A stretch of DNA of 64,000 nucleotides, from assembly GCF_030867145.1 (NCBI RefSeq), contig NC_134417.1:6983577-7047576 (forward strand). Direction: 5' to 3'. Source of the DNA: Opisthocomus hoazin (taxonomy: Eukaryota; Chordata; Aves; Opisthocomiformes; Opisthocomidae). Position numbers and translations under genes: made by a program. Position 1 is the stretch's first letter. Every line of letters begins with the position of its first letter. Below are positions 14,224-17,200 of this stretch, piece after piece. The notes beneath the pieces were generated by a model that did not search any database, was not told where the DNA came from, and saw only the letters and a program-made list of their open reading frames with translations.

Positions 14224-17200
14224 GTGGGTACCGCCCAGTGTTCTCTGGCAGTGGCTCCAGGCAGAGGGGGGCTGGAGTCCCCGCTGCCTGCGGGGCTGGC
14301 GTCCCCGCAGCTGCCCTGCATCCCACTCTGTCAGCCGCGTGGCAGCATCACGCTGCCCAAGCGTGATCGGGATGCCTCCAACGAGCCCCTGAGCATGCGT
14401 TCACAACCCCCAGCCCACTCCCGTAAGCAGGAGGAGCTGCTTTACACCCAGCAGACCTCCCCCTCTGCCTCCTGTCTTCAGCACCCTGCGCCCGGCAGAG
14501 ATGCCAGGAAGATGTTCCTGGGGCTGCGCCCGCCCGTGGCCTCTCCTCCATGTGCTGTCAGAAATCCTGCTGAGATGAACCCACTCTTGTTCTGTTTTCT
14601 TTGTCTTACCCCCGCTCCCTGCCCTCTCTCTCTCTCTTAGCCCATCCTGCTGCGGGAGGATCCAAATGTGTGTATTCCCCATCACTGGTACTCTCTGTTG
14701 CTTCATGGCTTTTGGGAGGTGTAAGGCTGCACACAGGGGCACCTGTGCAGCATGGGGAAGAGCTCCCGTAGCCGGCCCCAGCTGATGGAGAGGTGCTTGC
14801 CCGCAGGCTGGCCGTCCCCATGGAGCTGGCAAAGGGGATGGTGGCAGATTCGCGGTTAGCGCCTGGGCTCAGGATAGTGCTCAGAGGGACCAGCGTCCTT
14901 CCCCTCCACTGCGCCGAGGGCCTCATCCGCATGGGGAGTCCTTCCTCCATGCTGTCACGATGTTTCCTGTCACTGCTGCTGCTGCTTCTGCTAGTGCTGG
15001 GGCTCGTCGGGACTGGAGCCTGGCACGGTGCTTGGGCGGGCTGGCACGGTGCTGTCCGGACAGATGGGTGTGTGGTGACAGCCAGGAGGTTTTTGCCTGT
15101 GGATAAGCACTATTGCCCCATCCCGCCCTGGGCCAGGCAGTGCAGCCAGGCAGTGGTGAGACTGCTGAGGAGATGGGGACCTGGCCCCTGGCTCCTGGCT
15201 CAGCTGCCCCGGACATGGGCTAATGGAGATGGATGACTAACGCTGTACCCACTAACCTGTGCCCTGCCTGCCTCCAGCACAGCACACCGAGCCCCTGTGA
15301 CTTCTCGGGGCTGGAGGAGCGTCTCTGATACCTGAGTCCCTTTGCCATGGGGTCTGGTGGCAGCTGATGCTCGGGGTGCTGGCAGGCAAGCGCTGCTGCC
15401 TGTAATGGGTGTGTTGCCACCCTACCCTCACTTTGCTGTCTCTCTGGCTGCTCCAGTGGGCAGGTGCTTGGGCTCTGCTGGCAAGGGGATCCCATGGCTC
15501 CTCCTGCTCCATCCCCACAACCCGTTTGTAGGGTGGCAGGCCACTGCCTCTCCTCCCCTTCCCTTCTCATTCTCTGCCCCCAGATCCAGCTAATCTGGGA
15601 CAGCCGGGCAGGGAAACCCCCCCAGGCTGTGCCGGCAGGGGAGGATGGCAGGGGCAGTGGCACACTCTTGGGGAGGACGGTTGATCCCAGACCTGATGGT
15701 TGCAAGATCTGGTGTTGCAAAAAACCGTCCCCTGGAGCCTGGGAAAGGTCCAGGGCTATTCCCACAGCTGCTTCCCAAAACTGCCCCGTGCTCCTGGAGA
15801 GCTGCTCAGGCTGGGGGAGAGATGCACGTGCCCTTGCCCTGCTGCTGCCTGTGCCGCTGCGCTGTCGCCTGTGCCTTTTCCTTGTAATTGCAAGCTTTCT
15901 TCTCGCTGCACCCGACCACTCTTTTCTTTTTCCCAACAGCTTTTCTTGTCTCTGTCTTTCTCTGTCTCTTCCTGTCCGTGTGTCTTTCCCTGGCCCATCC
16001 CTCCTTCCCCGCCCGTAGATGTGTCCGACTTTGAGAACAATAATGATGCTAGAGGGGCAGAGCTGAGTCACCGCCATGACAATCTCTCCACAGTGACCAA
16101 CGCCATCGCTGGGATCAGCCCCTCTTCCTCCCTGTCGGCCTTGTCCAGCCGTGCCGCCTCTGTCGCCAGCCTCCACGAGCGTATCATGTTTGCTCCAGGC
16201 AGCGAAGAGGCTATCGAAAGGCTCAAGGTATGAGGCCGGCACCCGGTAGGACGGAGGGCTCAGCTCAAGGCTCTTGCACTGAGGCTTGCGGGGGGGACTT
16301 GGTATTTTCTGGAAACCCATTAGGAGTGAGGCTCGTGGGAAGCGATGCTCGAGCGCGCTCTTCCAGAGCAAACAGAGCCAGAGCTGCCAGACTGCAAACA
16401 GAGCTGGACTGCCAGACGGCGGAGGGTTTGGTGTGGTAGGGTCCACCTGGTGCTGCCTTCCTCCCCTTGGGGTGACTGCTGCCTTTGTGCTGTGGGATGG
16501 GCGCTCCTGGCTTGGGATTAGTGCTCGCGGCTCAGCATGGGGCAGGAGCGGGCTGGCAGCAAGGGTGTGGAGAGGCTGGTCTTCATACCTCGCTCTTTGA
16601 AGGCCGGGACGATGGAAAGACGTGGGTGAAATGCTGCTGCAGCTCGTTTAAACCAGCCTGAAACTGGGACTGGTGTCCCGCTGTGGCATGCTGGGCAGAG
16701 CCTGGCAGGGTGGGCACGTCTGCTGCCTGTACAATGTGCTAACCCCCCGCTAACCTCACGCTCACCAGGAAACAGAGAAGATCATCGCAGAGCTGAATGA
16801 GACGTGGGAGGAGAAGCTGCGGAGGACGGAAGCAATTCGGATGGAGAGGTGGGTGTTGGGATGGGATGGGATGGGATGGGATGGGATGGGATGGGATGGG
16901 ATGGGATGGGATGGGATGAAGTAGGGTTCCCCAGGCATCTCCTCTCCCCTGTGCTGTGCACTCCTGGGGGCAGCCGGGCAATTTGGCTGTCTAGCTGTAC
17001 CCTGGCTGCCCCCTGGGCACCCCAGTGTCCACCACGTTAGCCTGTGTGGACGTGATCTGCTCTGAGAAACCCTCCTGAGGCACAGAGAGAGCTGAAGCAA
17101 GCCCTACAGCTGTGATCCATGTGGCAAACCCATGGGCTGAAGTCCTGTCTGGCTTGTCTAGTGCTGGCTTCAGGGGCTTGTGGGGCTTTGACAGGCTCTT

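Follow-up and report, generated by a model that had tools for sequence, protein, structure and literature searches.

The closest described counterpart of the region studied here is exon 13 of mouse Kif1a, which is present in Kif1a-201 and missing from Kif1a-203. According to the available text of PMC12436618, both inclusion and skipping of this exon are seen in hypothalamus RNA, in each case with the acceptor that corresponds to the inner one described below. The same text reports that inclusion lengthens the predicted hinge, shifts the recombinant motor towards dimers, and raises ATPase activity, gliding velocity, and axonal velocity. Splicing of the exon changes with FTO and with fasting, and splicing of the hinge is tied there to neuropeptide transport and to weight gain, the latter via FTO in AgRP neurons. 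Hinge residues just beyond the neck coil are also needed for dimerisation of KIF1A(1–393), as given in the accessible part of PMC2661964, and mouse S402, a site for GSK3beta close to the neck coil, can carry point mutations without an effect on motility (PMC7768277, available text). An earlier sequence-only reading of the DNA examined here held that the neck governs dimerisation, and this agrees with the known effect of the hinge on dimerisation and activity (available text of PMC12436618 and PMC2661964).

Open-licence PMC articles that mention both KIF1A and microexons do not, in their accessible text, describe a microexon of KIF1A, and in the accessible text of those on KIF1B and microexons we found none, PMC10250204 included, that places a microexon in the neck of KIF1B. 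The SRRM4-responsive human KIF1B exon of PMC10250204 appears to sit elsewhere, in the K-loop of the motor, when the primers in the available text are compared with the K-loop sequence. Articles on a KIF1B microexon may therefore concern another microexon than the one in the neck. The main text of PMC12626420 contains no passage on either KIF1B or KIF1A.

The window analysed in this study is a stretch of 64 kb from Opisthocomus hoazin, which its sequence identifies as part of the gene for the kinesin-3 motor KIF1A. Its relevant features are given below with mouse exon numbers, a slash marking an exon boundary.

14081..14223, + strand: equivalent of KIF1A exon 12, encoding the end of the motor and the neck coil; donor GACA/GTGGGT; phase 1
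14641..14667, + strand: predicted cassette microexon of 27 nt encoding THPAAGGSK, with a polypyrimidine acceptor and the donor AAT/GTGTGTATT; orthologue, by sequence, of mouse Kif1a exon 13
14668..14676, + strand: GTGTGTATT, the nine intron bases that directly follow the microexon; KIF1B has the same nine, with similarity ending there
16019..16093, + strand: 75 nt added to the exon by the outer acceptor, related to the 78-nt extension of KIF1B
16094..16227, + strand: part of exon 14 common to both acceptors, starting at the inner one and containing the serine that matches mouse S402
16769..16848, + strand: next KIF1A exon, which fixes gene and frame

The peptide encoded at 14081–14223 is identical to KIF1A chain 8utn at 45 of 47 residues (hand count on the alignment) and to a KIF1B-like gene on contig C16 of the same genome at 40 of 47 (85%), which places the neck sequence of the window nearer to KIF1A than to this paralogue. 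The exons downstream match KIF1 paralogue exons in the same order. A run of GGGAT-type pentamer repeats (~16857–16918) starts a few bases past the donor of the exon at 16769–16848. On the opposite (-) strand, an open frame of 475 residues (15220–16647) covers the intron and exon 14, and this frame is probably a by-product of high G+C content.

The predicted microexon at 14641–14667 is exactly 27 nucleotides long, is preceded by AG and followed by GT, and is identical to mouse Kif1a exon 13 at 19 of 27 bases. Among the 490 AG-N27-GT stretches present in the 64 kb (both strands), it is the best match to the mouse exon, the next best reaching 15/27; when the AG and GT are not required, the best other 27-mer in the window reaches 17/27. 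Three AG-N27-GT stretches lie in the intron, and the microexon is the sole one that is open in phase. It also has the length (27 nt), the phase (1), and the position, between the GDIID-ending exon and the SPSSS-coding exon of KIF1A, that the published mouse probe and primers indicate. These sequence comparisons identify it as the orthologue of mouse Kif1a exon 13.

The published probe over mouse exons 12/13/14 reads A-CCAACACTGTGCCCGGAGGACCCAAAT-TG, which corresponds to an exon of 27 nt spliced to the inner acceptor (PMC12436618, available text; the division into exons is ours), and the article itself gives 10 residues from exon 13. The residues that the article names in the skipped form (Gly400, Ser406, Arg423, and Pro428) fit the product of the window that skips the microexon and uses the inner acceptor, by a hand count in the numbering of the 8utn alignment. 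Those named for the included form (Arg432 and Pro437) are nine higher than in the skipped form, as fits the microexon plus the inner acceptor (hand count; PMC12436618, available text). The mouse and hoatzin exons share their length of 27 nt, their phase, the junction residues (T.......K/L), and their location, after the neck coil and before coiled-coil 1, whereas the mouse peptide is TNTVPGGPK rather than THPAAGGSK, and the available text of the mouse study describes only inner-acceptor forms.

The acceptors AG/16019 and AG/16094 are 75 nt apart and in frame, and the exon ends at 16227 (AAG/GTATGA). A frame check in which the exon at 14081–14223 was joined to either acceptor, with the microexon in or out, gave an open frame for all four combinations. 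The earlier proposal that a 27-nt phase-1 microexon and a 75-nt alternative acceptor yield four in-frame neck variants is therefore upheld, with each site at the base first assigned to it. Judged from this genomic layout, four neck forms could be made, and two of these (skip plus inner acceptor, microexon plus inner acceptor) are already published for the mouse. The serine that matches mouse S402 would fall at positions 402, 411, 427, and 436 in the four forms (hand count, 8utn-alignment numbering). Microexon plus inner acceptor had also been said to reproduce the mouse junction GGPKLTNALVG, and this holds as a close match but not as a letter-for-letter copy, since the window reads GGSKLTNAIAG; the GGPKL of the mouse junction is taken from the published probe (PMC12436618, available text).

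Splice sites were scored with a consensus matrix, and percentiles refer to the full set of AG or GT sites in the window. Because base composition was taken from each locus, scores can be compared within one gene only. The acceptor of the microexon is strong (98.7th percentile), and its donor, AAT/GTGTGT, scores 3.0 (percentile 96.1). The outer acceptor of KIF1A scores 3.97 (percentile 97.2) and the inner acceptor 0.99 (percentile 91.8), and the exon-12 donor is low, with a score of 0.24 (percentile 87.7). The latter donor (14221–14229, ACA/GTGGGT) is farther from the consensus than the ACA/GTAAGT of KIF1B; of these two donors, that of KIF1A alone was scored.

Like the exons of the SRRM3/4-dependent neuronal microexon programme, the KIF1A microexon is short, in frame, of the cassette type, and part of a gene for neuronal transport; for KIF1A, this likeness is drawn from sequence context. 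An upstream UGC is a feature of this exon class. There is a UGC 21 nt upstream of the KIF1A microexon, but UGC and CU-rich motifs like those near the microexon are common in this intron, which makes the argument a weak one.

When the exon-12 peptide was searched against the assembly that contains the window (1.48 Gb), eight matches were obtained. We count two of these as KIF1-like and take the other six, by their family features, to be kinesins of other types. No KIF1C-like match is among the eight, and KIF1C may be absent from the genome or missing from the assembly. A DNA query of the assembly with 14081–14700, intended to find retrocopies as proof of splicing, returned the window itself alone among the best candidates scored.

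The second exon-12 match (85% identity) lies on C16, and its downstream exons match the KIF1A exons in order. The extension exon of this gene resembles the neck of human KIF1B (94% over 70 residues), and we take the gene to be KIF1B. Splice variants in the neck/hinge of mammalian KIF1B were reportedly described by Matsushita et al. in 2009. In the KIF1B-like locus (L010, a 10-kb stretch running from the C16 match) the layout of KIF1A repeats: an exon ends with GACA/GTAAGT at L010:371, a predicted microexon of 42 nt, IDPMGDEYSGSGGK, lies in phase at L010:1558–1599, and in the 3' exon 78 nt separate the outer acceptor (L010:3840) from an in-frame inner AG (L010:3918). The scan for this microexon gave no candidate under the strict splice-score limits set first, and placed the 42-nt exon at the top of 10 under loosened limits; its donor scores just 1.19.

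The two genes are alike in the donor bases of their predicted microexons, in having two in-frame AGs, and in their related extension peptides. In contrast, the microexon is 42 rather than 27 nt long in KIF1B, the extension has 26 rather than 25 codons, and the exon-12 donor is GTAAGT rather than GTGGGT. The 14-mer CAAATGTGTGTATT, that is CAAAT/GTGTGTATT, is the sole 14-mer common to both introns, and it falls at the donor of both candidate microexons. For comparison, a common 14-mer, at whatever position, turned up in 9 of 300 Markov shuffles of the KIF1A intron. Past the nine common bases the introns are without clear similarity, with 11 matches in 20 bases and 22 in 60 when counted from the donor.

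Both genes also have what can be described as a KIF1-type neck double acceptor, namely two in-frame acceptors 75–78 nt apart with an extension peptide of the form xxDFxN...ST. When each extension peptide is taken with the Y that would come from the microexon junction, the KIF1A and KIF1B peptides align with a score of 29, which was reached by none of 20,000 shuffles. Leaving out the Y gives the coding offset a score of 22 (1 of 2,000 shuffles), and this offset contains no stop in either gene. The off-frame offsets score 2 and 4 (2 and 0 of 2,000 shuffles, respectively) and contain stops (1 and 2 in one case, 5 and 2 in the other), such that the coding offset is the only one open in the extensions of both genes. 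The coding frame stands out by its openness and its raw score, not by the shuffle counts. In nine comparisons between intron stretches lying 100, 200, and 300 bases upstream, the highest score was 10.

The suggestion that the microexon and outer acceptor together give a KIF1B-like junction is strengthened by this resemblance to KIF1B, whose predicted microexon and double-acceptor exon are found in the same genome. An ancestral KIF1 neck layout, as first proposed, is the best reading, since the layout recurs in these predicted parts of KIF1B. Because KIF1B carries the same layout in the same genome, the microexon and double acceptor probably predate the KIF1A/KIF1B split, as judged from a layout common to two genes of one genome and not from a tree. 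What is new here is this KIF1B counterpart, and the comparative result is modest but useful.

The acceptor scores allow for a layout with fewer products. If the outer acceptor were constitutive in this lineage and the inner one little used, only two forms would be made, with the microexon in or out and the 25-residue extension in each. The outer acceptor outscores the inner one in KIF1A by ~3 bits (3.97 vs 0.99) and in KIF1B by ~3.5 (7.94 vs 4.4), and the inner acceptor may therefore be rare here; the extension is, moreover, open and related to that of KIF1B. However, the mouse forms use the inner acceptor (PMC12436618, available text), and both paralogues retain an in-frame inner AG at the corresponding position. 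We consider a constitutive outer acceptor improbable on balance.

Conversely, the microexon might be joined to the inner acceptor as in the mouse, with the outer acceptor a relic and the 75 nt now intron. The accessible mouse account has inner-acceptor forms only (PMC12436618), and we found no mention of the outer acceptor in the available text of PMC12436618, PMC7768277, PMC2636774, and PMC3602429, open-licence PMC articles that refer to KIF1A or KIF1B splicing, or in that of the reviews PMC6775250 and PMC13262244. The junction peptides, searched as text, gave no match in open-licence PMC articles. Against a relic stand the good acceptor still present at 16019, the open frame of the extension, the similarity of its peptide to that of KIF1B, and the stops that break the other two offsets, and we regard it as quite unlikely. 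That the microexon is a chance AG-N27-GT stretch is extremely improbable: such stretches are common in the window, but this one agrees with the mouse exon at 4 more bases than any other such stretch, is the only one of the three in its intron that is open in phase, and has a donor exactly in common with the predicted KIF1B microexon.

We therefore favour, with a probability of about 0.68, a splice-regulated KIF1A hinge whose length would be set by the microexon and the choice of acceptor, in which greater length would favour dimers, inclusion of the microexon would depend on splicing factors, and the layout would be older than the KIF1A/KIF1B split. The region would thus be a regulated hinge linking the neck coil to coiled-coil 1, and to this hinge the microexon could add 9 residues and the outer acceptor 25, giving hinges of 0, +9, +25, or +34 residues. 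A longer hinge would loosen the packing of the neck coil on coiled-coil 1, which in turn would promote dimerisation and motor activity. For the mouse microexon, the effects on dimers and activity have been shown and the packing predicted (PMC12436618, available text); for the extension, we infer the same effects. The non-consensus donor of the microexon, which is the same in KIF1A and KIF1B, may make inclusion dependent on neuronal splicing factors. Judging from this one genome, the common ancestor of KIF1A and KIF1B probably already possessed a hinge cassette composed of a microexon and a double acceptor.

A broader proposal can be offered only tentatively. The four-state neck might be an ancient KIF1 module that has been kept in both genes, with its GTGTGTATT donor, since the vertebrate genome duplications. 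KIF1A of this lineage would then use all four states to tune dimerisation, and rodent KIF1A would have become restricted to the inner acceptor.

The hinge influences how easily KIF1A forms dimers. Should KIF1A and KIF1B have inherited a single ancestral hinge cassette, both motors may be tuned by the same regulators. If the cassette is indeed ancestral, the outer-acceptor forms, which the available text of PMC12436618 does not mention for the mouse, would serve as test pieces for the relation between hinge length and motor activity.
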